Shown here in pieces: positions 31,921-52,916 of a DNA stretch of 64,000 bases (within the stretch, counting starts at the first letter, position 1; each line of letters opens with the position of its first letter). Source of the DNA: Halorubrum halodurans (GTDB lineage: Archaea; Halobacteriota; Halobacteria; Halobacteriales; Haloferacaceae); NCBI RefSeq assembly GCF_002252985.1, contig NZ_NHPJ01000132.1, positions 1-64,000 on the forward strand, in the 5' to 3' direction. Made by a program: the position numbers and the translations under genes. Under the pieces are notes generated by a model. The model was not told the DNA's origin and searched no databases. It was given only the letters and a program-made list of their open reading frames with translations.

Positions 31921-31922
31921 GC

Positions 31923-34496: not shown

Positions 34497-34884
34497 GGAC
34501 CTGGATCGAACGAACACGTCCGACGTTTGACCCGCCGCCCCGATTGTGAGTGGATCCGACCCGTATTCATGGGGGACGATCGACGACAGATCGTTGCTGA
34601 TTGGCTCACGATGTCTACTGGGTTCTGGATCGGAAGAGAAGCAACGAGCCCAATTCCGCGCCCCAAGGTGAGAGGTCACTCTACTGGAGCCTGAAGGTCC
34701 GCCATGTGCCGGGCGCGATAGAAACCCACATAGCGCGTAAGCAATCGCCACCCGATGACTGCGAGGCCCGCACCTGAAGCGTTTGTGAAAACATCGTCGT
34801 AGGCTGCGGTGCGGGCGGTGAGTGTTGACTGTAGTAACTCGATTCCGACGCCGTATGCGGCGACGACACAAAAAACAATGGTGA

Positions 34885-35597
34885 GAATTTGCGGTCGTGT
34901 TTAGTTAGTAGCATTCAGCCATCGAGCGAAGCTCTGTAACCAATTTTCGGCGGTCGCTGGTTCGACGTGGCTGAAACAGTTCGAAAACGACGAGGTTCGG
35001 CGCTTTAGTTCTCGAAAAATGCGTTCGATAGCATTTCGATTTCCGTGGCGTTCTGTCTGAAATCGGAGTCCAGCTCGGGAAAGCGCAGTTTGGAGGTGTT
35101 TCGCTCCGTCAACGAGAAATACGGAGGATTCGACATCGTGTCTTTGACGCAATTCGCGCAGGAAAATTTCTGTGAGAGCGGTCGTAGTCGTCGCAAACAA
35201 CCGGACGTGAAGCAGTTCGTTTGACTGCGGATCGGCGGCGGCATACAGCCAAAATTGCTGATCGTTGATCCGAATCACCGTTTCGTCGAGCGCAATCTGA
35301 TTCGGTGATCTCCCAGATTCCGGCTGTAGATCGGCTTTCTGAACCCAATCGTGGACGGCCTTTCGACTGCGTTGGACACCCAGCGAACCGAGCAATTCGA
35401 CGGTATTCGACAGCGAGAGTCCCGCAACGTGGGATTGAATACCCAACTCCATCGCCGGCTCGGGTGTCCGCTCGCGCTCCACAAAATCCAAATCAATCCA
35501 CTCTCTATGACCGTTGAGGCGGGCAATTTCTGCCATAGACCAGCAAGAAATTCTCCCGCCTCACTTTTCACGCTTAACTAAACACGACCGAATTTGC
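34885..35597. mobile_element. Insertion sequence, IS6-type, with 8-bp target duplication
   Basis: The element proper is 34893-35589 (697 bp). It has 15-bp perfect terminal inverted repeats: GGTCGTGTTTAGTTA at 34893-34907 and its complement at 35575-35589. It is flanked by a perfect 8-bp duplication GAATTTGC (34885-34892 and 35590-35597). It encodes one transposase on the minus strand. Size, repeat length and 8-bp duplications fit the IS6 family. It interrupts a VanZ-like gene. All ends were read directly. Confidence 0.92.
34901..35536 (-). CDS. IS6-type DDE transposase
   Basis: A 211-residue transposase with the DDE residues in context: first Asp in IALDETVIRI, second Asp in FLVDGAKHLQ, and Glu in AIERIFRELKRR. 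Short length and the QFWLYAAADPQSNELLHVRL block are typical of haloarchaeal IS6 elements. The frame begins at 35536 and ends at 34901, filling nearly the whole element, with the stop codon inside the left inverted repeat. It is uninterrupted, so the element could be active. Confidence 0.88.
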   Translation of the reverse strand: MAEIARLNGHREWIDLDFVERERTPEPAMELGIQSHVAGLSLSNTVELLGSLGVQRSRKAVHDWVQKADLQPESGRSPNQIALDETVIRINDQQFWLYAAADPQSNELLHVRLFATTTTALTEIFLRELRQRHDVESSVFLVDGAKHLQTALSRAGLRFQTERHGNRNAIERIFRELKRRTSSFSNCFSHVEPATAENWLQSFARWLNATN

Positions 35598-35978
35598 CAA
35601 TTCGGCCGCAAGGTGTCATGAAGTGTGTATGCGAGCGTCGCGGCGAGTGCACCGTATGCGAGCAGATGAAGCCACGTGGAGAAGCCGATAACATCGAATG
35701 GCCCGGTTCGGAACGTCCCGCTTCCTGGCGCGGGGACGATCGAGTACAACAGAATAACGGACGCAACGACCGCGACCGCAGCCCAGCGAACTCCCCGCGG
35801 GATCAACGGGAGTCGGATCCGAACCATCGTCACTCAATGATGAGTGATCGGACCTAAAGCGTGCGGTTCAACCGTGTCACCGAAGATCGAATGGTATCGT
35901 TTCGGCAGATCTCCATGAGAGTGGGGGTATTTCACGGGGAAGTTCAAGGTGAAATCCCTCTTCACCGCAGGTGGGATG

Positions 35979-38450
35979 TCAACTTGTCACAGGCGGGCTG
36001 ATTCCGTTGGACAATCCTTGGTATCGCTCCCACAGCAGTACCGCTGGCGGTAGCGCCACGACGGTAAACACAAACGAGTACACGACACTCAGTGCCATCA
36101 AGAGCCCGAAGTCGCCAAGCACTGGTGTGATCGCAAGCGCAAGCGCACCCGTCCCAAGCGAGGTTGTGAGCATGCTCCCGAGCAGAGCACCACCCGTTCC
36201 TGAAAGCGTAATGATCATCGATTCGTGAGCGTCAGCACCTGCGTTGAACTCGTCGATGAATCGGTGAGTGGCGTGAACGGAGTAAGCGATACCGAGACCG
36301 ATAGAGATCGAGAGGATCGTCGCCGTCAGAGCGTTGAGAGACAATCCAAGAAATCGCATCGTCCCAAGTAACACCGCGATGGCAATCAGGATGGGAAAGA
36401 GGTTGACGATACCAAGAAGCGGCTTCCCTTCCAAGACTGCGTACGCGATAATTAGGAATACCCCAGTTAATCCCATCGCGAGGACAAGCCCCATGATCGC
36501 CGAATCAAAAATAATGTCCGTTACGGCATCGAAGACCACAAGCTGACCGGTTGCGGTTGTCTCAAACCGGAATTTCTCGGCAAATTCACGGGAATCAGCT
36601 GCGGCTTCCGCCTGTGAGGCACCTGATTCTATTGCGTAGTCAACTTGTGCGCTCCGCCGGTCTGGCGTGAGATACTGCTCCGCTCGATCACCGCTTGAGG
36701 AGGCGAATAGCTCGTCGTAGATCAGTCCGAGATTGCGGTCAGGAACGCCGTTACCATCCACGTCATTTCGAGCGATGAGTTCGGCAAACGCCGGATCTCT
36801 CTCCGCATGTGACTGTATCACCGTCACGATGCTCGTCGGCCGGGCGGCTCCCCCACCACCGACTGCAAGCGCTCCTGGCGCGTCATCGTTCGGATCCGCA
36901 AGCGCCTCCAACGCATGGTCCTCCTCAAAGTTTCCTTCGACATACAGTGTAACTGATTGGTCTTGATTCGTTGAAAAGCGATCTTCGAGGAGGTTGATTG
37001 TCTCGGTAACAGTGTACTCACTGGGTGCGAACGGTTCTGGTAGCTCAGTCACGTATGCCGGCTGCTCTTCGGGCGGGAGGAAGTCCTCCGTTTCGAAGGA
37101 GGTGTCCACACCACTGCCATACGCGCCGGCCATTCCGCCCGTCACGAGCAACACGACAACGAAGGCGATCGGCGCGTACCGACTCACCTGTGCCGGAAAC
37201 GTGAGCAGTTTCCCCAGTGTGGAATCCTCCGAGGAGATCGGCGCAGAGTTGAATTCAGGCACGTTGTACTGTTCGCGTAGTTTGTCGACCTCAATTTTCG
37301 CGGCAGGGAGAAATAGCCCGAAAATCAGGAAGGTGAACACGATCCCGATCGCCGAGGCAATCCCCATGTTCCGGATCGGCGTGAGGTCTGATATCACGTT
37401 CGCACCGAAGCCGAACACGGTCGTCACGGTGACGATAATAAACGCGATCATCAACTGATTATTTGCCTCACGCATCGCCTCAACCGCCTCGTATCCAGCA
37501 GCCGTCTCCTCGCGGTAGCGATTAATGATGTGTATCCCGAAGTCGACACCGACTGCGAGCAGTAACACGGGCACCGAGATCATTTGCTGATTGAACGGAA
37601 TCCCGGAGAAACCAAGGAATCCGAACGTCCAGATCACGGTCATGAGAAGCGATAACAGCCCGAGCGAGAGATCGATCGGGTCACGATAAGCGACGATCAG
37701 GAACAACAACAACAACAGCACAACGACGGGCATGACAATCGTGAGAGAATCTCCGATGACTGCCCCGAGTTCTGCGTTCGTGATCCCGCCACCGAACGCC
37801 GTGATCTCACCGGGTTGATCCGACGCGATCGACCGGATCGTCGTCTGAATTTCTTGGAGATCTCCGGAGGAGAAGCCTGTAGGAACGTCGTGTGAAACGA
37901 CTGTGATCGACGCAGAAGCGCTCGCACTCGTCGGGTTGAAATCAGTCGAGAGGGTTCCGGTGAATCGCTGATCCTCAGAAAGGCTCCGAACGGTCTGCCG
38001 GATACGAGTCTCACTGGTTGACTCGATCACCCGCCGCTGTTCGGCCGGAGTAGTCGCCGATGGATCGATCGTCTGTGCGACTACCGTAGCGGGGCCGTTC
38101 GAGGAGGCAACTCGAAGGTCATCACGTGAGTTGATCTCCTCTAAGACGACGAGATCTCTGCGTAGTGCTTCCTTGGTGAGTACGTTACTTCCAGAGTGGA
38201 TGAGCTGTGTCGATTCTTCCTCGGCTGCGAATGGATCCTCGAACTCCTCGTTGATGGCGTCGAGTGCCTCCTGTTCCTCAAGCCCTTCAGTGAACGAGTC
38301 AGTGGCCTCTGTATCCGTGCTGACGAGCCCCATACCACCGGCGAACACCAGGGTGAGTACGAGAAACGCGACGATAATCCGCCGCGGGCGGTCAACGATG
38401 GTGTCGTTAAGCCGCCGCGTCCACTCCTCGGTTCGCTCGCCGAGCGACAT
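35979..38450 (-). CDS. MMPL/RND-superfamily transporter
   Basis: An 823-residue membrane protein with the RND layout in two halves: an N-terminal helix (RRIIVAFLVLTLVFAGGMGL), a large exterior domain, a sterol-sensing-like block (VMPVVVLLLLLFLIVAYRDP), a loop domain, then a second set (SAIMGLVLAMGLTGVFLIIA). Each half has about six helices, and the conserved GVDFGIHIINRY and ISIGLGIAYSVHATHRF segments resemble MMPL/HpnN-type lipid transporters. The substrate is unknown. The upstream secreted-protein gene ends 3 bp away, so the two form an operon; a TetR regulator lies divergently beyond. GC is well below core genes. Confidence 0.85.
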   Translation of the reverse strand: MSLGERTEEWTRRLNDTIVDRPRRIIVAFLVLTLVFAGGMGLVSTDTEATDSFTEGLEEQEALDAINEEFEDPFAAEEESTQLIHSGSNVLTKEALRRDLVVLEEINSRDDLRVASSNGPATVVAQTIDPSATTPAEQRRVIESTSETRIRQTVRSLSEDQRFTGTLSTDFNPTSASASASITVVSHDVPTGFSSGDLQEIQTTIRSIASDQPGEITAFGGGITNAELGAVIGDSLTIVMPVVVLLLLLFLIVAYRDPIDLSLGLLSLLMTVIWTFGFLGFSGIPFNQQMISVPVLLLAVGVDFGIHIINRYREETAAGYEAVEAMREANNQLMIAFIIVTVTTVFGFGANVISDLTPIRNMGIASAIGIVFTFLIFGLFLPAAKIEVDKLREQYNVPEFNSAPISSEDSTLGKLLTFPAQVSRYAPIAFVVVLLVTGGMAGAYGSGVDTSFETEDFLPPEEQPAYVTELPEPFAPSEYTVTETINLLEDRFSTNQDQSVTLYVEGNFEEDHALEALADPNDDAPGALAVGGGGAARPTSIVTVIQSHAERDPAFAELIARNDVDGNGVPDRNLGLIYDELFASSSGDRAEQYLTPDRRSAQVDYAIESGASQAEAAADSREFAEKFRFETTATGQLVVFDAVTDIIFDSAIMGLVLAMGLTGVFLIIAYAVLEGKPLLGIVNLFPILIAIAVLLGTMRFLGLSLNALTATILSISIGLGIAYSVHATHRFIDEFNAGADAHESMIITLSGTGGALLGSMLTTSLGTGALALAITPVLGDFGLLMALSVVYSFVFTVVALPPAVLLWERYQGLSNGISPPVTS

Positions 38451-38453
38451 CTG

Positions 38454-40460
38454 CTACTGCCCTCTCCGGTAGATGACGAGTCCAGCTGTCCCGATGACGA
38501 GAAGCGCAATGATGATGATCGGAAGCGGCAGCCCGCCATCTTCGCTTTCGACCACGTCGATCGGAACGCGGGACGTATCAGTCAGTTGGCTATCACCGTC
38601 TGCGTCGTCATATCGGAAATCAAGCGAGATTGGATACGTACTTCCCGGTGTCGCTGATCCGGTAGTCGTCAGCTCGAAGGTCATAGTCGTCGTTTCGCCG
38701 GGGTCAAGTGACTGAACGTATCCGGTGTCTGTGTTCCCAGTAGCAAGCGGATCATCAGCAAACAGGCGGGCCTCGATGTCACTGGCGGGTTCATCCATAT
38801 TGTTCGTCACCGCGACATCGACGGTTCGGGTTCCGCCCGCCGCAATCGTGCGGTTTTCGATCGCTACCGTGAATCGATCGCGTTCAGGGGCAACCTCAAC
38901 ATTGACCGCGAGATTCTCGTCAGCCCGGATCTCACCGTCATCGTTACGATACTGGACTGTGAGATCCAGCGAGCGGAGGCCAGCCTCAGCTTCACCACCG
39001 ATCGCAATCGGTAGCGTGAAGTTTTCAGATTCTCCGGTGTCGAGCGTTCCGACCGCAGCCGAGCGCTCAATGGGAAGGACGTTCTGATTTTCACCTGTAT
39101 ACTGGACCACGACGGTGTGAGCCGACACGGGTCCATTGTTGCTTACTGTCCCCCGCAGTTCGCCGTCTTCGTTGACACGCAGATCGGATTCGATATCGGT
39201 GAGCGTGAATTCCTGTTCGGAGGCAACCGCGGCATTAACGACGAGATCGTCGTCGACGCGGGTTTCCCCCTCGTCAGTGTAATATCGTACTGCCATCTCC
39301 AATGAACGGAGACCGGCCTCGGATTCGCTGCTGATCGAGATCGGGAGCGAGAAGTTTACGGCCTCACCGGGAGCAAGCGTCCCAACAGCAGCCGAACGAT
39401 CATCCGGTAGCACGGTCTGGTCATCGCCCGCATACTGGACCACGACACTGCGAGCCGGAAGCGGTCCCTCGTTGCGCACGGTACCGACCAGATCACCGTC
39501 TCCACCGACCCGAAGCGTCGAATCGATGTCGGTGAGATCAAACTCCTGTTCAGCCAGTGGAAGGACGCCGAGCGAAAGTCCACTATCAGTGCGAGCAATC
39601 CCATCAGGATCCTCAAACTGGACGGAACCAGCGAGCGTGTACTGCTGGACTGGGAGACCACTTGCGACGCCTACGTCATACGCAACAGTAGTCGTTTCAC
39701 CGGGTTCGAGTCGTTCGACTCGAACCGTGTCTGATTCGCCGCCGCTCACGGTGACACTCTGACTCTGCGTACCGAACGTCACGTCCGCGTCGTAGGCAAC
39801 CTCCGTACCAACGTTCTCGATTGTCGCCTCAACCATACCGCTGTCACCGACCTGCGTGTTGCTCTCGACATCGACGACCTGGAAGCGGGCGTCATCACGC
39901 ACGCGAAGATCAACTTCTCTAGAAACCGTCACAGTGCGACCCTCGCCGGAAGAGTAGTACGAGTAGGTCAGGTCAAGATCGAGTGAGTACGTGCCAGCGT
40001 CGACATCATCCGGCACGTTAATACTTACAGGTACCTCTCCCGGTGCGTTCGTGGTCACGCCACCGATCGCGATCTCACCGGATTCGACTGAGAGTGGACC
40101 ATCCGCCTCGGCGTCGACACGGACGTTACGTGCGGTAGTTACGGTTTCAGCCACGGACGGATCGCCGAACCGAAGGTTTCCATCATTGGCGATCGTCAAC
40201 TCGACCTGATTCGTCTGTCCCGGTACGAGGTTCGGATTTGCAGCGTACACATCGAGATCAGGCGACCCACCAACGTTGCTTGTCGCTTGTGCGGGTGCGT
40301 CCGAAACTGTACTACTGCCCATCGCTGCGGCCGTACTACTTCCTACAGCGGTTCCACTAGATTCGAGGCCACTCAGCTCCGCACCGACAACGCCGACACC
40401 GATGCCACTCGTGACGAGCAGAACACTCACGAGAATGACGGACAGCGGTCGGGTTCGCAT
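38454..40460 (-). CDS. Secreted S-layer-domain/CARDB-like protein, partner of the MMPL transporter
   Basis: A 668-residue exported protein: signal peptide (RTRPLSVILVSVLLVTSGIG), then at least four Ig-like repeats of the COG1361/CARDB kind, two of them nearly duplicated (EFDLTDIDSTLRVGGDGDLV and EFTLTDIESDLRVNEDGELR), and a C-terminal transmembrane anchor (LPLPIIIIALLVIGTAGLVI) followed by basic RRGQ. There is no PGF-CTERM motif. The gene sits 3 bp upstream of the transporter, a pairing that suggests an extracellular accessory or substrate-capture subunit. This functional link is inference from the operon. Confidence 0.8.
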   Translation of the reverse strand: MRTRPLSVILVSVLLVTSGIGVGVVGAELSGLESSGTAVGSSTAAAMGSSTVSDAPAQATSNVGGSPDLDVYAANPNLVPGQTNQVELTIANDGNLRFGDPSVAETVTTARNVRVDAEADGPLSVESGEIAIGGVTTNAPGEVPVSINVPDDVDAGTYSLDLDLTYSYYSSGEGRTVTVSREVDLRVRDDARFQVVDVESNTQVGDSGMVEATIENVGTEVAYDADVTFGTQSQSVTVSGGESDTVRVERLEPGETTTVAYDVGVASGLPVQQYTLAGSVQFEDPDGIARTDSGLSLGVLPLAEQEFDLTDIDSTLRVGGDGDLVGTVRNEGPLPARSVVVQYAGDDQTVLPDDRSAAVGTLAPGEAVNFSLPISISSESEAGLRSLEMAVRYYTDEGETRVDDDLVVNAAVASEQEFTLTDIESDLRVNEDGELRGTVSNNGPVSAHTVVVQYTGENQNVLPIERSAAVGTLDTGESENFTLPIAIGGEAEAGLRSLDLTVQYRNDDGEIRADENLAVNVEVAPERDRFTVAIENRTIAAGGTRTVDVAVTNNMDEPASDIEARLFADDPLATGNTDTGYVQSLDPGETTTMTFELTTTGSATPGSTYPISLDFRYDDADGDSQLTDTSRVPIDVVESEDGGLPLPIIIIALLVIGTAGLVIYRRGQ

Positions 40461-40661
40461 TCGCTACCTCTCCCCCACCGGTTCAACAGTTCGGTGCCCG
40501 GCGGGTGACAGACACTCGGTTAGAGGGCGGAACATCATCGACAAGATACTGAAGGACTTCACACACAGTGCTTGGTTCACGAATCAATAAACGTTTTGTT
40601 CTCCGAATCGAATAGCCGGTATGGAGCATAACAGGAATGCCTCGCATCATGGTCAGAGAAC
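40461..40661. promoter_or_regulatory. Divergent promoter region with possible TetR operator
   Basis: The 201-bp gap separates the secreted protein/transporter operon from the TetR gene. It contains the palindrome AAACGTTT (40589-40596) within AATAAACGTTTTGTT, and direct copies of CGAATC on either side. A divergently placed repressor usually binds here. No firm operator can be named from sequence alone. Confidence 0.3.
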
Positions 40662-41291
40662 ATGACGAATTTCACTGATGAGGAACGAGATCGCGTTCGA
40701 GTAGAGTTACTCGAGGCGGGACACGACCTTTTCGCCAAACATGGCTTCGATCGCACGCGCATAAGCGACGTGACCGATGCGGTTGGGATCGGGACGAGTA
40801 CGTTCTATCAGTTCTTCGATTCCAAAGAGGAACTGTACCACGCGGTGCTGATCGACGAGCGTGACCGGCTGTTTGAAACACTGGAGTCAGCGGTAGCCGA
40901 CGCGGAGACCCCGCACCAGGAAGCGGAGACGATCCTACGGACGACGTTAACCGAAGTACAGTCGAACCCCCTGATCCGACGGCTGTTCGTCGACGGCAAG
41001 ATCCGAATCATCGAAGATCAGTTGGACGAGGTTACCGACGAGGGTGACCAAGAGAGTCACTGTTCGGAGTCACTGTCGACATACGATCGAATCCTTTCGC
41101 AACCGGAAGAATGGGTGGACCGTGGGATAGTACGGATCGATGATCCCGATATCGTGCGCGGCCTCTTCCGATCGATATTGTTTGTCACACAGGCGCGCGA
41201 GACGCCCGTCATTCCGGACGGGTCCTACGAGCCCATCGAAGACGCACTGATCGAGACGATCGTTGCTGGGTTATTTGAAACGGAACACTAG
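40662..41291 (+). CDS. TetR/AcrR-family regulator
   Basis: A 209-residue TetR-type regulator. The N-terminal HTH reads RVELLEAGHDLFAKHGFDRT, RISDVTDAVGIGTSTFYQFF and DSKEELYHAVL. The C-terminal ligand-binding region is acidic and divergent, as usual. It is divergent from the MMPL operon, so it probably represses that operon until a ligand binds. Base composition matches the island rather than the core. Confidence 0.87.
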   Translation: MTNFTDEERDRVRVELLEAGHDLFAKHGFDRTRISDVTDAVGIGTSTFYQFFDSKEELYHAVLIDERDRLFETLESAVADAETPHQEAETILRTTLTEVQSNPLIRRLFVDGKIRIIEDQLDEVTDEGDQESHCSESLSTYDRILSQPEEWVDRGIVRIDDPDIVRGLFRSILFVTQARETPVIPDGSYEPIEDALIETIVAGLFETEH

Positions 41292-41508
41292 TACGTCCCG
41301 TGTGACATCCCGAGTTGGCTCTCATGAGCGAATCGGGATGATCGGTACTAGGAATCTACTGATTCGGAGAACTCCTCTAGTGATGTTTCGGCATCGAGGA
41401 TCGTTTTCGTCGCGTCAGTCTCGCGTCAGACACATGATCCGAAAACGACATTCACACTACTTCTCGCGCCGATTGTGACGGTTTCACACACTCTCGACTA
41501 CACACAAA

Positions 41509-41520
41509 GTATTTATAAGA
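41509..41520 (+). promoter_or_regulatory. TATA box of the S-layer gene
   Basis: GTATTTATAAGA matches a strong archaeal TATA box, preceded by an A-rich BRE-like CACAAA. Transcription should start near 41540, giving a leader of about 130 nt before the ATG at 41673. Long leaders are typical of S-layer glycoprotein genes in haloarchaea, unlike the usual leaderless transcripts. Confidence 0.6.
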
Positions 41521-41587
41521 ACCGTCGTATTGTCCTGATGCCCCTATCCCCGAACGCGGCAGGAGCGAGTAATCCGGCACACGTGTA

Positions 41588-41619
41588 CCGTCTCACACTG
41601 CGGGAACGATGTGAGACGG
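41588..41619 (+). promoter_or_regulatory. Hairpin in the S-layer mRNA leader
   Basis: CCGTCTCACA (41588-41597) and TGTGAGACGG (41610-41619) form a perfect 10-bp stem with a 12-nt loop, 53 bases before the start codon. It could stabilise the abundant message or control translation. The pairing is seen directly; the role is inferred. Confidence 0.6.
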
Positions 41620-41672
41620 AGTGTGGTGGACAAAACTGCTGACGCACTCGGAACGCAGACAGACAACAAACA

Positions 41673-44600
41673 ATGACAAACGACAATACACGTACGAAGG
41701 CCAACGCGGTCTTCTTCAGCGTCATCATGGTGCTTTCCATGGTGGCGGTTGGCTTCGCTGCTGCGCCAGCAGCAGCAGCCAATTCAGGAAGCGTAACGTT
41801 TGATGACCAAGATCTTGGTTCAGATGGTGCTGTAGACGTTGAGGTAGACAGCCTCAGCGGTCCCTCCGGCAATAATGTCACGGCTGTCGTCACCTACACC
41901 AGTGGTGGCACCACGACGGTTGCAGGAATCAACACGACAGATGTTGGCAGTCCCGACGGGACAGTCTCCGTTGACATCGGAGACGCCGGTGGATTCCCCG
42001 GTACTCACACTGCCCACCTGTTCAACCCCAGTACTGCGCCAAGCCTGAGTGTTAGCGGCACGGTTTCTACCAGCCAAGCTAACCAGGCGTTCGCCTCTGA
42101 CACCGCTGCGGTTACTGCTCAGCGGTCCGCAGGCACTGGTGATGTCTACAATGGTTCCACCGTCTATCAGGGTGAGGACGACCTGACCTTCATTGACGAT
42201 GATGGTTCGACGGTCACGCCCGGCGCACTCCAGAAGACCGCTGGATCCGCCGAGGGTACGTCGCTTCAGCTGCCGATAGCCACCGATGCGGCGACCGGCA
42301 CGTACGCGACGAGCAGCGGGTTCGAGGTCATCGTTCAGGAGCCTCGTATCACCACCTCTGAGGTCCAGATCAGCGGTTCTGGATCTGACGTCAGTCAGGT
42401 CGGTCCTGACGCCGCTGACAACCTCGACATCGTCGCTGAGTGGAACTTCCCCGAAGCCGAGGATCTTTCCATCACAGTCGAGGACCCGAGCGGCACGGAC
42501 ATCACCGGCGAGGTTGTCCCTGGTTCGACAACTCTCTCTGGCGGTGATGATTCCACTAGCCTCGATCTCTCCGGCGAGGACGCTGGTGAGTACACCGTCA
42601 TCTTCGAGGGTAATGACAACCTCGACCACGATGAGGTTGTCGAAGAGTACACCATCGAGTTCACGACTGACGACACAGTGCAGGTCGAGGTCAGTGAAGA
42701 GTCGGTCACGCAGGGTGAAAACCTTGAGTACACCGTGAGCGGTGGGACGAACGGTCAGTTCCACACCGTCACTATCGATGCGGAGGACTTCCGCAGCGAC
42801 AACATCGATGATGTCTTCCGCAACGTTGGAGACACTTCGCAGGTTGGCTTTGCCAACAGCACTAGCAACAACGCTAATCCCTCGACTGCGGACGTTGCCT
42901 ACGCTGTCGTCGAGATCGACGGCACCACGGCAACTGGATCCATCGACGCGGGTACTCTCGATGACGCGTCAATAACTCTTGACGTGTATGAGGCGAATTC
43001 GTCCGACCAAGTCGATTTCAGTGGTGACTCCATTGATGATACCTCGTTCGATGTCGAGTCGGGCGAGATCACCATCGAGAGTCCCGACAACCAGTACACG
43101 ATCGGCTCTCAGGTCGACATCAACGGAACTGCCACCAGTGCTGAGGCCGTGGACGTTTACGTCCGCAGCAACAACGAGTGGCGGCTCCTCTACCCCGACA
43201 TCGATGTCGACTCCGCTGATGAGTACGAGCAGGAAGAGGTCGTACTGAGCAGCCCCGGTCTCAACGTGAACACGCCCGGTGCCGATCTGCTCTCGCAGGC
43301 TGGAACCTACCGTTACGGTGTCGTTGACCACAGTGAGTTCAACGGTTCCACGACGGTTGAGACGACTGCTTTCAGCCGTGCCACGAGCACACAGCAGTCC
43401 CTGACGACGGTCCAGGGTGAGCTGTCCGCTCAGCTCGAGACGGTTAACGGCCAGATCAACACTCTCGATAACGCTGCCGACATCACGGGTACGGCAGAGG
43501 GTCAGGACACGATCGCACTCGTCTACGTCGACTCTCGCGGTAACGTCGCCGCGGAGACGGTCGACGTGGACGACGACGGTACCGTCGACGTGGAAGACAA
43601 TACCGTCCCGAACGTTGGCGCCAACCCCAATGGGGTTTCGCTGAACGAAGGGACGGTGACTGCCCACTTCATCTCACAGAGTCGTGACAATACAGTCGGT
43701 GACGGCGAACTCCCCACCGGTAGCGCTAGCAATAATGTCCAAGACCTGGTCGACTGGGTCAACAACGATGTTACCCAGCGCTCGGTGACTGGGGACCAGG
43801 CTCGCTCGCTGATCGTTAGCGAGACGACGGACGACACGGCCAGTGACGACCTGATGGTCACCCAGAGCTTCCGGTACACGGAGAGCCAGACGACGCTTCA
43901 GTCCATCTACCCTGATGTGGCTCAGGCAGACGGCATCAACCCGGTTGCGACCGGTGAAACGATGGTCGTTGAGGGCATGACGAACCTGCGCCCCGACGAC
44001 AACTCGATCACCGTTGAGGTTCTGAACCAAGACGGTGACTCGCTGGTTATCTCCAGCACTGACGAGTGGGCCACGAGTGGTCAGTGGAACACTTCCGTCG
44101 ACACGAGCGACCTCGAACCCGGTACGTACGTCGTCGAAACTGACGACGGCGAGAACACGGACCGCGCTGAGGTCGAAATCGTCGAGGAACGCGACACCGG
44201 GAGCCCGGAATTCTCGGTCTCCGATCTTAACCCGCAGGACGTCACTGTCACGCAGGGTGACGCGATCGATGTCTCTGCGATGATCGAGAACACGGGCGAC
44301 GCTGCTGGTAGCCAGACCGTCGAGTTCCAAGTTGGCGGGAACACTATCGCGTCCGAAGAGGTTGAACTGGACGCTGGTGGAAGCCAGACGGTCGAGTTTA
44401 CTGGCATCGACACGTCCAGTCTCGATGCTGGTGACTACGAGCACGGTGTCTACACCGACGACGACAGCCAGACGGCCACGCTGACCGTCGAAGCTCCCGA
44501 CACCGGTGGCGATGACGGTGCCTCCGACGACGGTGCCTCCGACGACGGTGCCTCCGACGACGGTGCCTCCGACGACGGTGCCTCCGACGATGGTGCCTCC

Positions 44601-44926: not shown

Positions 44927-45272
44927 GGCTGTGTTGAATCGCCATACAGCAGCGAGGTAGGGCGCTAAATCATAGGAGCTGAAGCGAGAGACTTCAGTTG
45001 CCTATGACCCAATCTCCCGCTTCATCGGGGAAGTTGTGCCGGTTGCTCAAGGAGTTACTGGCGATAGAGACGAATTCGCCGCCCCGGAAGATGCGGCGGA
45101 TTCGCGGATTACGCACTCGTTTCCTCCATTGTCTGCGGATTTACCTCGATTCATCGTACCGCATGACGATCGTTCCGCGAGATCGCTCTGATGTGTGTCG
45201 TCTATAACATCAAACGCTTCGTCAAACAGTGAATCTCTCTGCCTTACAGCGATTCAACACAGTCTCACAAAG
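44919..45272 (+). mobile_element. Truncated IS5-like element (MITE) with 8-bp target duplication
   Basis: The element is 44927-45264 (338 bp). Ends are GGCTGTGTTGAATCGC and the complement of GACTGTGTTGAATCGC (16-bp inverted repeats, one mismatch). An exact 8-bp duplication TCACAAAG flanks it (44919-44926 and 45265-45272). Inside is the decayed N-terminal part of a transposase: MTQ-ISRFIGEVVPVAQGV, GDRDEFAAPE, then FADYALVS and HCLRIYLDSSYRMTI in three different frames, as in haloarchaeal IS5-type enzymes. The rest has been deleted. It cannot transpose by itself. Confidence 0.82.
45004..45190 (+). pseudogene. Decayed transposase N-terminal fragment (IS5-like)
   Basis: The start MTQ (45004) is followed after a one-base loss by ISRFIGEVVPVAQGVTGDRD, then FADYALVS in a second frame and HCLRIYLDSSYRMTI in a third. 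The pieces line up in the order expected for an IS5-type transposase, so at least three small indels have occurred. Catalytic residues are missing. Family placement is from memory of such proteins. Confidence 0.65.
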
Positions 45273-45380
45273 TTAATCTTTCTCAAAGAGATCATCGACT
45301 ACGGACATCAAAAGTCTTGAGAGTATGTCATGAGGTGACAGAAAGTATTTACCCACCACAGCGATACATCCGGTAGTGAA

Positions 45381-46979
45381 ATGAACACACGTCCGGCTCT
45401 CGTCGTGCTGGTCGTGATGGTTGCTCTCATTGCACCGATCACGACTGTAACGGCACAATCTGATATCGCTGTCGGGTTTGGCGACTCTCAGTCTACAGTG
45501 ACACAAGGGGATGTCGCAACGATCGATCTTCAATTACGGAACACCGAGGAAGCTGACCTCCGTGTCCGGTCATCTGATCGGAGCTTTCGTGCTACACTTC
45601 GTGTCCGTGATGGTGACAACGACGGAACCGTCCGGGTTCGTTTCAATACGTTCCGTGCTACCAGTGATGATCGGGGTCCTACGTTCGTGGCCACCGACGC
45701 TGCGGATGATGTCGAAACTATCTCCTCTTCGTATGAAGGCTCTGGAGACGTACTCGACAGTGGCCGGTACAACCTAATCGTCTCAACGGCTGAAACGAGC
45801 GTCGCATCCAAACTGTATCTTGAAGAACCTGGTGACGCTGGCGGGAGTAATACGACCGTTGTGGCTCCCGAGACGCCACTTCCGAGAGTAACCACTGATG
45901 TAGCTGACTCTACTACTAGTCTGAATATTGACGGAGAGGCGAACGTGTCGACGGCCGCTACCGGAGACCACATCCGTACACGGTTTTCTGTCCCTGGACT
46001 CGGTGGCATTGTCGACGCAGATCCGCCAGTCCGCAATTTCGTGTTCGCTGCGAATAGTTCCCCCGGTGCCCGGACTACACACACGATGTCTATCTCGCCA
46101 AACGAATCGGTTTCTGTGCATTCGATGACGATTGATTATCATGTTGGTAGCAGCTCTGATGTCGCAGATGTTTCTAAGATTTCACAGAGTGATATCAAGA
46201 CTCTCGGTATCGACACCACGGGCGACGGCTACATTGACCGTTCCGAGTTGCTCTCGATTCAGAACATTCGAACGGAGAGCAACGGTCGGCTCACGGTGAC
46301 CTTTGACCAGTCGATCGATATCAACGCGAATGACAGCTTCTTCGCGTCATACATCGTACGAAATCCTAATGTGACTGGATCACATGACGTCGGGGTTACG
46401 CTCTATGGTGAGAATGAAACGGTGCGAGAGGAGGGAATCGTCCTGTATGGTCCTGCCGGACAGGGAACGCTCGGATACGGTGTCGATCTCCGGATCAAAT
46501 CCGTCGACCAGAGAACGGAGGCGATTGCGCCGCTAGCTACGCTCAAATCGGTCTACGATTCGGATGCGAATGATCTCGTCGCCGAAGTGAATACGAGCGA
46601 ACTCAAGCCGGGAGAATACGAGATCAGTCTTTCGGTGGATGAAACCGCCCCTGAGACCCTTCCGCGGACGGAATTGACTGAACGGGTTACAGTCGCGGAA
46701 CCAGAGGTTGCGTTGGAAGATCCTTCGATCGGCAGTTCGCCGCGCCTTGTCATTGATGGAGACACGAACCTTGCGCCCAGTAATTCGCTAATCGTTCGAG
46801 TAGAAGCCATGGAGATCAATGGTGCGATTAGCCAGATACAGAACTGTGTGGCGATCGTCGAATCCGATGGATCGATCAACTGTGAATTCAATCTCGAGAA
46901 GTCCACAGAAGATTTCGATATTGAGGTCACGGTTGAGCGTCGTGGGACCGTGATTGCTGGTCCGGTTGAATACAACTGA
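45381..46979 (+). CDS. Secreted surface protein (BGTF/S-layer-like), function unknown
   Basis: A 532-residue exported protein with a signal peptide (RPALVVLVVMVALIAPITTV, cleaved near TVTAQ-SD). The body is beta-rich with many sequons (NTT, NVS, NSS, NES, NDS, NVT, NET, NTS) and an N-terminal block VTQGDVATIDLQLRNTEEAD that resembles the BGTF-type Ig fold of haloarchaeal surface proteins. A segment GIDTTGDGYIDRSELL looks like a calcium-binding dockerin/EF-like loop. There is no C-terminal anchor or PGF motif, so attachment must be indirect. Base composition is island-like. Confidence 0.7.
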   Translation: MNTRPALVVLVVMVALIAPITTVTAQSDIAVGFGDSQSTVTQGDVATIDLQLRNTEEADLRVRSSDRSFRATLRVRDGDNDGTVRVRFNTFRATSDDRGPTFVATDAADDVETISSSYEGSGDVLDSGRYNLIVSTAETSVASKLYLEEPGDAGGSNTTVVAPETPLPRVTTDVADSTTSLNIDGEANVSTAATGDHIRTRFSVPGLGGIVDADPPVRNFVFAANSSPGARTTHTMSISPNESVSVHSMTIDYHVGSSSDVADVSKISQSDIKTLGIDTTGDGYIDRSELLSIQNIRTESNGRLTVTFDQSIDINANDSFFASYIVRNPNVTGSHDVGVTLYGENETVREEGIVLYGPAGQGTLGYGVDLRIKSVDQRTEAIAPLATLKSVYDSDANDLVAEVNTSELKPGEYEISLSVDETAPETLPRTELTERVTVAEPEVALEDPSIGSSPRLVIDGDTNLAPSNSLIVRVEAMEINGAISQIQNCVAIVESDGSINCEFNLEKSTEDFDIEVTVERRGTVIAGPVEYN

Positions 46980-47239
46980 TCACAACGCGTTTTTACTCAT
47001 CACTGATGAAGAGGCCCATCATCACTCTATAATCCTCTGTTGAATCCGCAGAAAGCGTCGGGAATGGGTCATTCTGTGCTCGATTCAGAGCTGCTGCCGA
47101 GAGAATTTGGAGATGGAATCTTGGCAGAGAGCGAGAGAATCGAGATTACTGGATGGATCGATCCACTTCATCGCCGACGAAAAGCGGGATAAACGCTCTT
47201 TCAGAGATTGTGGTCCCCGTGCCATCATCGGATTCACGT

Positions 47240-47693
47240 ATGGAAACGCTGCTAGCTAGACAAGCCACGGCTAACAACAAAATGATTACGCCGTCTGGGG
47301 ATCTGCTTCTTCCACAGCCGGTAGGCGGTCGAAACGTGTGTGCGGCGCGGTCGCTGTCTAGCGATAGCAGGTGCTAAAGAAAGCCCCGACCGACCGCTGA
47401 GGGCCGCCGGTTTGGCGGCCCTCAGCTCCCTCGTCTGTCTGCCCGGCTAGTGGTCATCATCATTCGGAGAGGCGATCGTGTGACTCGGGACGCCAGCACG
47501 TGAAGCAGAGATTCACGTATTCGGGCTTTCCCGGATGCCGCGGCGCGCGGCATCCGGGCTGTAGCGCCCATGACTCGACTTCTTTCGCACATGGACCAGT
47601 CAACAGAACGTGCTCTATGGCACGGAATCCTTATCGGTCTCTTGCGCCCCATATCTTGGTTCACGTTCTCTAGGGATAGCAGCGTTTCCATCG
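47240..47693. mobile_element. Candidate palindrome-rich non-autonomous element
   Basis: A 454-bp unit bounded by a 15-bp inverted repeat: ATGGAAACGCTGCTA at 47240-47254 and its exact complement at 47679-47693. Inside are two perfect hairpins: CTGAGGGCCGCC paired with GGCGGCCCTCAG (47397-47425, 5-nt loop) and CCCGGATGCCGCG paired with CGCGGCATCCGGG (3-nt loop, about 47529-47557). The GC-rich core contrasts with its AT-rich surroundings. Haloarchaea carry palindrome-associated elements related to IS200/IS605; this could be one. No target duplication was seen. Confidence 0.5.
47397..47425 (+). repeat. Perfect 12-bp hairpin
   Basis: CTGAGGGCCGCC (47397-47408), loop GGTTT, GGCGGCCCTCAG (47414-47425). 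A long, fully paired GC-rich stem inside the candidate element. It could be recognised by a TnpA-like enzyme or act as a terminator. Confidence 0.85.
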
Positions 47694-47733
47694 AGTCAAC
47701 AGAGCACTCTATAACACACGCGACGTGGAGATA

Positions 47734-49380
47734 CTACACCCAGTGACCGAGTAAGTATGATGATCCCACAATAACGATGCCGCCAAACAACTCACGACCA
47801 CCGATACCAAGCAGAAGAAAACCAGATTCATCATCAGTGGTACCACCGCCGCTATCGGACTGACTATCGCTCTTATTGCCTGATACGGATTCTTCTTTAT
47901 CGACACGATCGTCGGTAACCATTGTGTCAGTGGTATCAGTATTCGTGTTGGTTTGATTGTTCAGATCAGTGGCGACCTCACTAGCGTTCTCACCTCTGTC
48001 AGTTTTATCCGTCTGTTTTTCATCAATAAATACAGACTCAGTCTCGGTATACTGTTTGTCATCATCGTATGTAACCAGGATATTGACGACTGTCTGTCTC
48101 GCTCCAGCGGCAAGGGTTTGATCGAATCTTACTTGATTTATTGGCCGATCAACATCAAACTCTCGAGCAATATCGATCCGATCTCCGGTACTACCATTAA
48201 TCGTCTCGACTGTCACACGTGTGATCTCCGCCTTCGAAACGTTACCCGTGATACGGAGTGTCCCCGTTGTGGCGTTAGCTGTAGTCCTCGTAATATTCAC
48301 TTGTGGATCGGAGTTGTGTTTTATTGAAAATGTATGTTTATTGATATTGCCAGCAGAATCCTCTGCCACAAGCCGAAATTCGTTTGAATCAATATTGTTG
48401 TAGAGCTGGATTTGTTTATTGATATCAATCGTAATCCGATCTGGATCCGGTCGTGTATCACTCTCGAGTAGCAATATGTCTGATGCGTTGTTACTCGTGC
48501 GGTTGAGTTCGACGCGGTTAAGTTTCGTATTGTCGCGTATGGTCCCTTGAATTCGGACCGAATCCGAGTGGCTTACTGGTGGGATCGTAAGATTAATCTC
48601 CGGATCAGTCGCATCGTCTACGACCAGAGTAAACGCGTCTTCATTCGTCTTTCCGCGTGAATCTGTATATCGAGCAACAATCTCATTTTCTCCGGTACCA
48701 AGCAGCAAGTCTTGGGAAAACGAGTCTCCAGGGTTATCGATATAAAAGAACTCACGCGTGGTTTCGTTAGCTTCCGAAATGTTATAAGTGTGTTCGATAG
48801 TGACCCGTTCAACCTCAGAGACTGTGTGAAACGTTCCAGCGAGTGTTACTTCTCCACCAGAAACATTAGTCTCGTTATCAGGGGCACCCATGATGCTAGT
48901 AGTGAATGGTGATGAATACTGAACACGCGGTGCGGCGGTATGCTTTGTAATTGTCGTGGTAAATGTTGATACCTTATCAGCACTCACGATAACTTCGACC
49001 GTGTTTTCGTCTGTATCGAGATCAAGGGTGACATTGCGCGAGAACGACCGATCATCGGGGTTGTACGATCGCCAGATTTCACCATTTATTCTGATCTCAA
49101 CGAACTCAATCGGCGTGTTGGTTTTGACCGTAACGTTCGCCGCTGGATCGGCTTGAACAATAATCTCCTCTTTCTCTGTGAGTTGTTCGCCGTTAACTTC
49201 GACACCGATCGTGGTGTCTTCTTGTGCGACCACTACGTTCGTTGTTGGCCCGACAGTCACGAGCGCGACACAGAGAGCGAAACACAAAATGAATCGTGAT
49301 ACGAATCGCCACGAGGAACAAAATCGACGAACAAGATGTGACTGACGACACGGCTGTGATTGTTTCTCTGCGTTCATCAC
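47734..49380 (-). CDS. Secreted Ig-repeat surface protein with C-terminal membrane anchor
   Basis: A 548-residue protein. An N-terminal basic region and hydrophobic segment (FVSRFILCFALCVALVTVGP) form an export signal. The body has several Ig/Big-like repeats (NETNVSGGEVTLAGTF, SDSVRIQGTIRDNTKLNRVE, TTGTLRITGNVSKAEITRV) with many N-glycosylation sequons. A Ser/Thr/Asn/Asp-rich stalk leads to a last hydrophobic segment (GFLLLGIGGRELFGGIVIVG). It has no canonical PGF motif. It is among the most AT-rich coding regions of the window, which suggests a distant donor. Confidence 0.72.
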   Translation of the reverse strand: MMNAEKQSQPCRQSHLVRRFCSSWRFVSRFILCFALCVALVTVGPTTNVVVAQEDTTIGVEVNGEQLTEKEEIIVQADPAANVTVKTNTPIEFVEIRINGEIWRSYNPDDRSFSRNVTLDLDTDENTVEVIVSADKVSTFTTTITKHTAAPRVQYSSPFTTSIMGAPDNETNVSGGEVTLAGTFHTVSEVERVTIEHTYNISEANETTREFFYIDNPGDSFSQDLLLGTGENEIVARYTDSRGKTNEDAFTLVVDDATDPEINLTIPPVSHSDSVRIQGTIRDNTKLNRVELNRTSNNASDILLLESDTRPDPDRITIDINKQIQLYNNIDSNEFRLVAEDSAGNINKHTFSIKHNSDPQVNITRTTANATTGTLRITGNVSKAEITRVTVETINGSTGDRIDIAREFDVDRPINQVRFDQTLAAGARQTVVNILVTYDDDKQYTETESVFIDEKQTDKTDRGENASEVATDLNNQTNTNTDTTDTMVTDDRVDKEESVSGNKSDSQSDSGGGTTDDESGFLLLGIGGRELFGGIVIVGSSYLLGHWV

Positions 49381-49604
49381 AGTGATCCAGTCGTATCGAG
49401 ATATCTGACGGTTTCAATGCTCTGCATACATGTTCGACGATATTATTCGTACTTGATTGTCGCGGTGTGATTCTTATATCCGATATTTGGTTGTTGGAAT
49501 CCAGGAGCCAGTCTCACGATTCACACCAGATTCGTCACTACGAGCGAGAAAGCATCCACCTAGATCATGACAGATATTCCTCGGAGAATACTGTTGTTAA
49601 ATTA

Positions 49605-50210
49605 TCAAGTATTCTCGTCGCCCCTGTATAATCGATGGTTGAGGTAGTCATATAGTGATGCTTTGGTACGTTCCGTAATTCCGTCACGAGATGTCGTCAG
49701 TTTATTCATATGTGCGCCGTTCAGGCTCGCGAAAATGTGCTCGCACACGAGGTTGGAATCAACAGGCTGGAACTCTCCGTTTTCGATACCTCGCTGGACG
49801 ATGTCGTCGATACGTTCGAAAAGCTGCTGATCGACGGCTGTGAACTGCTCACGAAACGACTCGTTGGTCACGGCCTGTACACGCAGCTCAAGAATCACCG
49901 CGTACATCTCACGCTCGCTTGCGTCGTTTGATGACGGTAACAGCTTCTCAAGTAGCAATTCGAGCTCCTCTCGAGCTGTCTCAGTCGATTCATTCTCCAG
50001 TTCAGCCATGAGCTCGATGAGTACATATTCGAGAAGAGAGACGAGAATGTCATCTTTTGAATCATAATGGTAGTAGAGAAGTGATCGACTTTTCCCAAAT
50101 TCCTCGGTGATATCGGTGATAGAAACCTGGGAATATCCGTTCATTGCCACTGCGTTGAACGCGGCCTTCATAATTGCGTCTCGGGTCTGTTGTTCGCTGT
50201 CTTCGGGCAT
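49605..50210 (-). CDS. TetR/AcrR-family regulator
   Basis: A 201-residue regulator with the TetR HTH (IMKAAFNAVAMNGYSQVSIT, DITEEFGKSRSLLYYHYDSK) and an all-helical C-terminal domain with INGEF-type ending (RGIENGEFQPVDSNLVCEHI). No target gene is beside it in the usual divergent position, except the aglB 5' fragment downstream of its start. It differs from the TetR at 40662, sharing only the fold. Confidence 0.85.
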   Translation of the reverse strand: MPEDSEQQTRDAIMKAAFNAVAMNGYSQVSITDITEEFGKSRSLLYYHYDSKDDILVSLLEYVLIELMAELENESTETAREELELLLEKLLPSSNDASEREMYAVILELRVQAVTNESFREQFTAVDQQLFERIDDIVQRGIENGEFQPVDSNLVCEHIFASLNGAHMNKLTTSRDGITERTKASLYDYLNHRLYRGDENT

Positions 50211-50294
50211 GGTCTCCGTTTCGGGCCCTCGAGGATTGTGGTTTCGATCCTCACGACGTAATGCGAAAGAGATCGGACTTCAGTCATGGTCACT

Positions 50295-50458
50295 GACAAC
50301 GGAGGGTTTTATTCTGTCACCCGCACAGGGTCGGGTAATGGCGGACCCGCACGCGGCGACGCGGGAGCTCCTCGAGGAGCGACCGGCGGTCGGGTCAGCC
50401 CTCGAATCGGTCCTCGCGGCGGACGACTCCGGCCCCTGGGAGTTCGACGACGTCGACG
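50295..50458 (+). repeat. Duplicated aglB promoter and 5' end (164 bp)
   Basis: 50295-50458 aligns without gaps to 52874-53037 with eight mismatches by eye: five in the 43 bp upstream and three in the coding part. It includes the TATA-like TTTTAT, the short leader and the first 40 codons of aglB. Identity stops abruptly at 50458/53037. Confidence 0.9.
50338..50458 (+). pseudogene. aglB N-terminal fragment
   Basis: ATG at 50338 begins ADPHAATRELLEERPAVGSA, matching the first 40 residues of AglB (52917) apart from two substitutions. It ends at a fusion with S-layer sequence. If transcribed it would make a 58-residue product (stop near 50511) with an out-of-frame tail. It has no catalytic domain, so it is a remnant. 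Confidence 0.85.
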
Positions 50459-51152
50459 GCCGAGTTTACGATCGCCGCGCGCGATGCGATCTTCGACAAC
50501 ATGGACGGTGACGAGGTCCAGATCGGTCTCGGCGAGTCTGCGACCATCAGCGGAACGACAAACGTTGCTCCCGGCTCGGATGCCAGCGTGCGCATCCAGT
50601 CGGCTGAGGGCGTCTCGCCCTCGTTCGTCGAGACGTCTGACGTCCAGATCAACAGCGACGGAACCTTCAGCGCCGAATTCGACGTGAGCGCTCAGTCCGT
50701 CAACGACACGGGCACGGTCATCTTCCATGTCGCCGGTAGCTCCGTCGAGGGCTCCGATATGCGGATCGTCGAGACGGTCGGCGAGCCTGCCAACTTCCAG
50801 GTCTCCGGTCTCAACCCGCAGGACGTGACGGTCACGTCCGGTGACGTCATCGACATCCCCGCGACGGCCGAGAGCACGGGCGAGAACGCGACCACCCAGA
50901 CCATGACGTTCCAGGTCGGCAGTAACACTATCGCCGATCAGGACGTCCAGTCTCGATGGCGGTGACTACGACCACGGTGTCTTCACCAACGACGACAGCC
51001 AGACGGCCACGCTGACCGCCGAAGCCCCCGACGACGGTAGCTCCGACGACGGCTCCGGTGATGACGGCTCGACGGACGACAGCACGCCCGGCTTCGGCGC
51101 GCTCGTCGCCCTCGTCGCCGCTGCCCTGCTCGCGACGCGGCGTCGCGACTAA
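50459..51152 (+). pseudogene. Remnant of a different S-layer glycoprotein gene (3' part)
   Basis: In the S-layer frame the sequence reads EFTIAARDAIFDNMDGDEVQ ... VNDTGTVIFHVAGSS, then FQVSGLNPQDVTVTSGD, clearly related to the C-terminal part of the complete S-layer protein (SDLNPQDVTVTQGD). A deletion of about 53 bp at a short ACGTC microhomology near 50942-50952 shifts the frame; the end continues in another frame as SLDGGDYDHGVFTNDDSQ and DDSTPGFGALVALVAA plus ATRRRD. So the PGF-CTERM end survives but the gene is broken twice: no 5' end, and an internal frameshift. It has higher GC than the complete copy. Confidence 0.85.
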
Positions 51153-51219
51153 GGCAGCCACACCGTCAGGCTAACCACCGGCTCCGCGCCGGTCATTCGC
51201 GGACCTTCTTTATCGCGAC

Positions 51220-51261
51220 GCTACACCGACCAGCGGCGGTGCTCGGTCGGATCGGTGTAGC
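51220..51261 (+). terminator. Inverted repeat downstream of the S-layer remnant
   Basis: GCTACACCGA (51220-51229) and TCGGTGTAGC (51252-51261) are perfectly complementary over 10 bp with a 22-nt loop. They could be the old transcription stop of the resident S-layer gene. Role inferred from position. Confidence 0.4.
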
Positions 51262-51298
51262 TCCTCCTCGTGGCGAGAGCGCCGGCGATGAATCTGTG

Positions 51299-51319
51299 TA
51301 TGTGTAGGTTCTACACATA
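51299..51319 (+). promoter_or_regulatory. Palindromic operator of the VapBC-like pair
   Basis: TATGTGTAG-GTT-CTACACATA is a perfect 9-bp inverted repeat, ending 5 bp before the antitoxin start codon. Type II antitoxins bind such sites over their own promoter and repress it. Confidence 0.6.
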
Positions 51320-51324
51320 GATCG

Positions 51325-51720
51325 ATGGCTGAGGAGAAAACCCGCGTCGATTTCAACGCCCCGAAGTCCTTCATCGAACGGGCCGACAGCGTGGTCGAGA
51401 TCCTCGACGTGTCACGGACGCGCCTCCTCATCGAAGCCCTCGAGGACGAACTCGAAGCGCTCGCGAACGACGAGGCGTTCCGCCGGCGTCTCGGTGACGC
51501 CTACTACGACGGCCGCGTCGACTACGACACCGTCGAAACGATTCTCGGCCACGAGGAGGCACTCCGAATGAAACTCCTCCGAGAATCGATCGATCGGACT
51601 CCCCCTGAACCTCGATTCGAGGACGACGTTCCGAGTGACGATGCCTTCTACGACGGTGATGTCCCGGAATGGACGGATTCCGCTTCGTCTGAATCCCCGG
51701 AAGACGAGTCACACGTCTGA
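51325..51720 (+). CDS. Antitoxin-like protein (VapB partner)
   Basis: A 131-residue acidic protein. The N-terminal half (TRVDFNAPKSFIERADSVVE ILDVSRTRLL) resembles an RHH-type antitoxin domain, followed by helices and a disordered acidic C terminus (DDVPSDDAFYDGDVPEW). It lies 2 bp upstream of a PIN-domain gene and 5 bp after a perfect palindrome, the classic layout of a VapBC module. The assignment is by context plus the fold-like N terminus. Confidence 0.7.
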   Translation: MAEEKTRVDFNAPKSFIERADSVVEILDVSRTRLLIEALEDELEALANDEAFRRRLGDAYYDGRVDYDTVETILGHEEALRMKLLRESIDRTPPEPRFEDDVPSDDAFYDGDVPEWTDSASSESPEDESHV

Positions 51721-51722
51721 GG

Positions 51723-52178
51723 ATGCCGGAGAAAGCCGTCGCCGTCGTCGACACCAACGTGCTGTTGAATCTGGCTCTTCCCGTCGTTGACGCCCGTCCG
51801 AGGGCACCCTCCGGAGCGGATCCTCTCAAAGCGCTCCTCACCGCGTACGACGTTCACGTTCCTGCAAGCGTCCTCGGCGAACGTACCGATGTGACGGGGA
51901 GCGGTGACTTGCTGTCTACGGCTGCCGACCTCGTGTTCCAGGCAGCCAACCATCTGTCGACCCACGATGTCGACGATCCGCTCGAGTACGGCCTCGATCG
52001 CGGGGAGTCCAACTGTATCCGGCTGGCCAACGAATTGGAGGCGGACCTGTTCGTCACTGACGAGTTCAATACGACCAACTACCTCCTCATCACCCTCGCG
52101 CTCGACGACCGGAACGTCCTCTTCACGACGCCGCGCGTCCTCCGTACGCTCGCAACCTGGGCGGTTCTCCCCGTCTAA
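51723..52178 (+). CDS. PIN-domain ribonuclease toxin (VapC-like)
   Basis: A 151-residue PIN-domain protein. Acidic active-site residues are Asp10 in AVVDTNVLLNL, Glu in LDRGESNCIRLA and Asp in ADLFVTDEFNT. VapC toxins cleave specific tRNA or rRNA. Spacing of 2 bp from the upstream gene indicates co-translation. High-GC codon use suggests it belongs to the resident chromosome rather than the island. Confidence 0.8.
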   Translation: MPEKAVAVVDTNVLLNLALPVVDARPRAPSGADPLKALLTAYDVHVPASVLGERTDVTGSGDLLSTAADLVFQAANHLSTHDVDDPLEYGLDRGESNCIRLANELEADLFVTDEFNTTNYLLITLALDDRNVLFTTPRVLRTLATWAVLPV

Positions 52179-52189
52179 TATGTTTCGGC

Positions 52190-52271
52190 CGCACTCACCT
52201 ACTACGTCGAGATCAAGGACTGGGACGCGCAGTACGTCGATCGACTCCGACGGCAGTATCTCGAAGGCTGA
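52190..52271 (+). pseudogene. Possible C-terminal remnant of an unidentified gene
   Basis: An in-frame segment AALTYYVEIKDWDAQYVDRL then RRQYLEG and TGA looks like the end of a real protein, with acidic haloarchaeal composition, but it has no start codon nearby. It may be a leftover of the rearrangement that produced the surrounding scars. I do not recognise the source protein. Confidence 0.3.
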
Positions 52272-52355
52272 ATTCCTCTCCCCGATACTCTCGACCGGGC
52301 CGAACCGCCTCGATATCGCTCGTCTCACGACGCCGGTGAGACGGCGTCCTGCCCG

Positions 52356-52802: not shown

Positions 52803-52916
52803 GTACGCTCGGTGGCGGCGGCGTGGACCTAAAACGCCCGGTATACGGCGGGGTGAGGCGCGCACGACCCGGCGACAACGGAGGATTTTACCCGGTCGCC
52901 CGCACAGGGTCGGGTA

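Follow-up and report, generated by a model that had tools for sequence, protein, structure and literature searches.

The described systems closest to the locus reported here are variable cell-surface loci of haloarchaea. In Halorubrum ezzemoulense, homeocassettes are mutually exclusive islands that occupy an equivalent position and carry divergent versions of one function, and those encoding surface components were suggested to be virus-receptor variants (PMC11078007, mBio 2024). The Haloferax volcanii and H. gibbonsii clades have strongly divergent surface-layer (S-layer) glycoproteins, and one clade is suspected of having acquired its version from a more distant lineage (PMC5867893). In Haloferax volcanii, ten N-glycoproteins are encoded by hvo_2062-hvo_2084 around the S-layer gene, a clustering whose cause was left unexplained (PMC8241124). 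A variable cell-wall-associated genomic island is described in Haloquadratum walsbyi (PMC4535781). The present locus lies in the first 64,000 nucleotides of contig NZ_NHPJ01000132.1 of Halorubrum halodurans (assembly GCF_002252985.1; this whole stretch is referred to below as the window), where a foreign segment at 34,500-50,448 has displaced the resident S-layer gene.

Comparison genomes are denoted by G-numbers, with G000 being the present genome; type A denotes a BGTF-type S-layer and type B an HVO_2072-type S-layer (TIGR04216). As with homeocassettes, the two versions exclude each other at an equivalent position (the same locus in G001 and G022; exclusivity over 52 Halorubrum genomes). The present case differs in that the exchange is between species and S-layer families and in that part of the displaced version survives; because only the S-layer gene has a counterpart in both versions, the locus falls short of the homeocassette rule of at least 50% homeoalleles. 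For Haloferax volcanii and H. gibbonsii, the switch was deduced from distribution only, whereas the present locus shows the donor-type gene side by side with the stub and the duplicated flanks, and the scatter was quantified across 52 species, with one genome for each. The Haloquadratum walsbyi island, as far as its description goes, is alike in being a variable cell-wall genomic island. Mutually exclusive surface islands and the presence of two S-layer types within one genus were already known (PMC11078007, PMC5867893); new within the literature compared are a family switch in which the remains of the old gene and the duplicated flanks are still in place, the measured genus-wide scatter, and partner proteins that track one S-layer family.

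The segment is distinct in both composition and homology. Guanine-cytosine (GC) content along the window falls from 0.70-0.76 to 0.45-0.60 at 34.5 kilobases (kb) and recovers from approximately 50.3 kb, while third-position GC is 0.95-0.97 in the left flank and 0.45-0.71 inside the tract. The window is collinear with G001, the nearest relative (97.3% in the rpoB region), at 92-94% identity up to position 34,499, where homology is lost; it restarts at 50,449, within the last third of the G001 S-layer gene. These two points define the foreign segment as 34,500-50,448 (no strand). Compared with the same place in G001 and G022, its homology is limited to the duplicated vanZ, the ends of the S-layer gene and a copy of the aglB 5' end. 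To the right, 51,028-56,927 is collinear with G022 at 85%. In G001 and G022, the interval from the copper ATPase to vanZ/aglB holds a single intact S-layer gene. No close relative carries the tract, and the best relatives of its genes lie outside the clade. In order, the tract carries a vanZ gene split by an IS6-family element, genes for an MMPL transporter, a CARDB protein, a TetR regulator, the S-layer glycoprotein, a DUF7827 protein and ORF548, and a second TetR gene.

The original prediction, made from the sequence without database searches, had placed a low-GC tract at 34,497-52,355 and read it as an island that replaced the resident S-layer gene, leaving the broken end of that gene at its right edge. 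The tract is real, with GC and homology both stepping sharply at its edges, and the predicted contents (a complete S-layer gene, further surface proteins, a transporter and regulators) were all found. Its right edge has to be moved: foreign DNA ends at approximately 50,448, and the remainder (50,449-52,355) is resident DNA made up of the stub together with an RHH/PIN-like gene pair. Replacement of the resident gene is likewise supported, as the stub is a relative of the intact gene that G001 and G022 carry at this locus. The tract also duplicates genes that flank this locus, and the presence of both flanks argues for exchange with an equivalent locus over a free-standing island.

At the left edge, the copper-type P-ATPase gene (31,095-34,496, plus strand; Pfam E1-E2_ATPase and HMA) is resident and collinear with G001 and G022 to 34,499; its true start is probably near 31.9 kb, downstream of the listed open reading frame (ORF) start. 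Approximately 180 base pairs (bp) following its stop codon have no match in any other sequence compared. Next is a second vanZ gene (34,679-35,827, minus strand; GC 0.60), which the original prediction had overlooked. Its product is 75-83% identical at the amino acid level to the VanZ proteins encoded beside aglB in the same clade, 77% identical to that of the resident vanZ, and 50-57% identical to those of the other type-B genomes that have one. This gene is interrupted by a 697-bp insertion sequence (IS; 34,893-35,589, minus strand; transposase at 34,901-35,536) with the features of the IS6 family: a DDE transposase (DDE_Tnp_IS240), terminal inverted repeats and an 8-bp target site duplication (TSD), GAATTTGC. 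The vanZ frame is intact if the IS and one TSD are removed, indicating that the IS was inserted later.

At the right edge, 164 bp (50,295-50,458, plus strand) duplicate the aglB promoter and first 40 codons, with 95% identity to 52,874-53,037 (97.5% to the resident aglB over 120 coding bp). This copy had also escaped notice; the approximately 85 bp ahead of it match no other sequence compared. A 10-bp microhomology, GACGTCGACG, which aglB has in common with the S-layer gene in its G022 version, joins this copy to the stub left by the resident BGTF-type S-layer gene (50,449-51,153, plus strand). The stub comprises the last third of the gene, matches the BGTF domain NF045517 with 81.7 bits, and is 80-83% identical in nucleotide sequence to the intact S-layer genes of G001 and G022. 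It is truncated, does not share the reading frame of the aglB start, and is itself frameshifted. By their identities, the imported vanZ and aglB end belong to this clade's kind.

The acquired S-layer gene (41,673-44,759, plus strand) encodes a 1028-amino-acid glycoprotein of the HVO_2072 family. The protein matches TIGR04216 with 570.6 bits (curated cut-off 400), has a signal peptide (TIGR04207, 29.7; cut-off 24.6) and a PGF-CTERM anchor (TIGR04126, 47.7; cut-off 24.5), and aligns to the solved S-layer protein PDB 7ptp (E value 4e-146) over residues 158-842 plus the anchor. By contrast, the S-layer proteins of G001 and G022, and those of G007, G012 and G033 encoded beside vanZ/aglB, have the NF045517 BGTF domain and no TIGR04216 match. 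The two families have the signal peptide and the C-terminal region in common; N-glycosylation sequon counts do not separate them. Judged from these domain matches, the event is a change of S-layer family. Apart from the stub, no other type-A S-layer gene was found in the assembly.

Across the 52 Halorubrum genomes, TIGR04216 is matched over its cut-off in 13; a further 35, none of them among the 13, have an S-layer gene with a strong BGTF match (at least 73 bits). None keeps both families intact, and traces of both are found only in the present genome, with BGTF as a stub. This mutual exclusion has a Fisher's exact probability of 4e-9 (phylogeny ignored). Four genomes have neither type clean: G019, G034 and G043 (79-94% complete), and G029, whose HVO_2072-type locus is broken, the S-layer genes being part-length and the DUF7827 gene split (L158:4779-9887). 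A tree of the rpoB region pairs G000 with G001 as sisters, nested within a clade bearing the BGTF type. S-layer type changes 11 times on this tree (12 type-B tips among 47), compared with a mean of 10.8 for shuffled labels, and therefore has no phylogenetic signal on it. When the flanking genes of type-A and type-B loci outside the present clade were compared, only scattered matches were found, so that equivalence of position is not established there.

We propose that a foreign segment from an equivalent locus displaced the resident BGTF-type S-layer gene, and place the probability of the whole account at approximately 0.88. The ancestral order would have been copper ATPase, BGTF-type S-layer gene, (RHH/PIN pair), vanZ and aglB, as is typical of the clade. 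The cell would have taken up a segment from the equivalent locus of another lineage, in which MMPL-CARDB-TetR-S-layer-DUF7827-ORF548-TetR presumably lay between vanZ and aglB. The left join would have formed directly behind the copper ATPase stop codon; the right join would have been illegitimate, with the aglB end fused via the 10-bp microhomology into approximately codon 700 of the resident S-layer gene. Stripped of its promoter and first two thirds, that gene would have remained as a dead 3' stub, and the IS6-family element would have entered the imported vanZ afterwards. The outcome is a genome with one complete S-layer gene of the two families, taken from the other family together with its own accessory proteins, and with the resident AglB-like enzyme retained. 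The acquisition with its boundaries, the displacement of the old gene and the change of family are shown by the sequence comparisons, whereas the donor gene order, expression of the new gene and any benefit, such as an altered virus receptor, are presumed. Several observations weigh against this account. No genome with the proposed donor order (vanZ, cassette, aglB) was found, and the nearest relative of the S-layer protein, that of Halorubrum sp. CBA1125 (G040), is only 66-70% identical, which leaves the direct donor outside the sampled genomes. The imported aglB end is far closer to its resident counterpart (97.5%) than is the imported vanZ (77% at the amino acid level), and the segment may therefore be a mosaic from more than one step. 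In addition, the tree was built from a single 4.8-kb rpoB region, and the joins were read only from a draft assembly in 143 contigs.

The old gene may have been lost in the same event or through a later deletion; both are possible. In a two-step version, which differs from the proposed displacement in timing only, the cassette was first placed beside an intact resident gene, giving two S-layer proteins, and a later deletion, from the imported aglB into the resident gene at their microhomology, destroyed that gene. Two S-layer proteins have been reported in some haloarchaea (PMC10544981, PMC9973310), and a simple deletion would be expected to leave the aglB copy joined to the stub at 10 bp of microhomology, as seen here. 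Against this, none of the 52 genomes has both families intact, so the intermediate would have to be short-lived; we consider the two-step version a real possibility, somewhat short of even odds. Reversing the direction, with the HVO_2072-type locus ancestral here and the BGTF type gained by the relatives, would accord with the scatter of S-layer types on the tree, which makes direction unreadable from counts alone. The broken gene is nevertheless of the BGTF type, as are the pieces common to all close relatives, and it is the intact type-B segment that has the foreign composition, leaving this direction a negligible chance.

An assembly chimera, in which strains or contigs were wrongly joined, has to be considered for a draft genome of 143 contigs and 95% completeness in which a second copy of the aglB 5' end, 95% identical, is present. 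However, the right join shares only approximately 10 bp, which is too short for the usual k-mer assembly errors, the rest of the assembly contains no intact BGTF S-layer gene of this kind, estimated contamination is 0.35%, and the imported flanks are clade-specific. A chimera is highly unlikely on these grounds. The IS6-family element near the left edge might point to import by a mobile element, mediated by the IS or by an integrase. That element has its own 8-bp TSD inside vanZ, however, and is a later simple insertion; no integrase was found among the ORFs tested, no tRNA gene in the window, and no direct repeat common to both joins. IS6- or integrase-mediated import was rejected because of the IS's own TSD and the lack of an integrase, a tRNA gene or att repeats, and we regard it as extremely unlikely.

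Two genes downstream of the acquired S-layer gene encode proteins that follow its family. The first (45,381-46,979, plus strand) encodes a putative secreted partner with the domain DUF7827 (PF25162), and the second (47,734-49,380, minus strand) encodes ORF548, a putative secreted or anchored beta-rich partner of 548 amino acids that matched no Pfam or NCBIfam family. Both are predicted to be chains of beta-sandwich immunoglobulin (Ig)-like domains, all-beta in the case of the DUF7827 protein (mean pLDDT 81.5, and 74.6 for ORF548); Foldseek searches with the two models returned just generic Ig-like multi-domain matches with low TM-scores. Within Halorubrum, full-length ORF548 and DUF7827 are found only in type-B genomes, and the only type-B genome without both is G040, a fragmented assembly. 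In 170 genomes of the family, ORF548 is present in 31 of 36 with TIGR04216 over the cut-off and in 7 of 134 without (Fisher's exact test, 4e-22, uncorrected for phylogeny). The two proteins co-occur with HVO_2072-type S-layers across the family.

The association extends to another genus. In three Haloferax volcanii-like genomes, the genes for MMPL, CARDB, DUF7827 and an ORF548 homologue are grouped around an HVO_2072-type S-layer gene, a likeness to the hvo_2062-hvo_2084 cluster (PMC8241124); the DUF7827 gene is upstream of the S-layer gene in Haloferax, whereas it is downstream here. In one of these genomes (G075), the S-layer protein gives a match of 1343 bits along its length to the Haloferax volcanii structure 7ptp. 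The three genomes also have another CARDB-MMPL pair, a more distant one, on the far side of the S-layer locus (L253:4640-8141, L254:4742-8108, L255:4361-7850). Going by gene order, cassette genes would correspond to HVO_2070, 2071 and 2074. In Halorubrum G030, six cassette genes occur in the same collinear order. MMPL, CARDB and the first TetR gene also adjoin type-A S-layers in G008 and G038 and are therefore not specific to one type.

These distributions lead us to suggest, tentatively and at close to even odds, that HVO_2072-type S-layers travel as a portable kit. Without DUF7827 and ORF548, the S-layer protein would work rarely or never, and the trio would move as a unit, displacing the BGTF type whole; Halorubrum would flip between the incompatible coats so often that type lacks phylogenetic signal. 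If so, the cluster of glycoprotein genes that surrounds the S-layer gene in Haloferax volcanii would be this kit. Two partner families that track one S-layer family across genera make the function of that unexplained cluster testable.

S-layer proteins are the cell wall of haloarchaea, and here a single locus shows a change of the whole coat to another family, complete with its boundaries, its cargo and the gene that was displaced. Since HFTV1, HRPV-6 and HRTV-DL1 are reported to use S-layer proteins as receptors (PMC9973310, PMC10544981), a change of coat family could alter virus range. Virus escape is, by analogy with this published receptor work, a plausible cause of the swap; effects of the coat change on mating or adhesion may equally be involved.

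The remaining cassette genes lie on either side of the S-layer gene and its partners. The MMPL/RND-type transporter (35,979-38,450, minus strand; Pfam MMPL) is 88% identical at the amino acid level to those of G017, G004 and G039, compared with 66% for a resident paralogue elsewhere in the genome. It pairs with a surface protein with CARDB and NPCBM-associated domains (38,454-40,460, minus strand), assigned by domain search and locus comparison. The first TetR regulator gene (40,662-41,291, plus strand) adjoins the CARDB-MMPL pair in several Halorubrum S-layer loci. The second (49,605-50,210, minus strand) has no homologue above 44% identity in the 170 genomes of the family and gives no pointer to the donor.

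Right of the stub, the resident flank begins with a two-gene pair (51,325-52,178, plus strand), RHH-like and PIN-like by eye, whose products are 84-90% identical at the amino acid level to those at the same place in G022 and G012; neither gene matched Pfam or NCBIfam. The pair has a toxin-antitoxin layout and, among the loci read, is otherwise found at this place only in G022 and G012. It is followed by the resident vanZ (52,356-52,802, minus strand; NF037970; 88-90% amino acid identity in G001, G022 and G007) and by the AglB-like oligosaccharyltransferase gene (52,917-55,382, plus strand). The original prediction had counted aglB as the neighbouring glycosylation gene. The AglB_L1 domain is indeed present (33.7; cut-off 23.6), but the protein is a divergent paralogue that scores 159.6 bits against TIGR04154, under the curated cut-off of 450, and it belongs to the resident flank rather than to the acquired load. 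A second, longer AglB-like gene lies elsewhere in the genome.

The locus has been active beyond the S-layer event, as seen in the divergence of aglB and the adjacent sugar transferase gene and in the insertion of an epimerase gene. The aglB and sugar transferase genes (52,917-56,940) are just 80% identical to those of G001, compared with 92-94% for the backbone, and were therefore probably exchanged separately. The NAD-dependent epimerase gene (56,991-57,899), which is absent at this place in G001, G022 and G007, has a low GC content (0.57) and is inserted between the sugar transferase gene and a hydantoinase gene.

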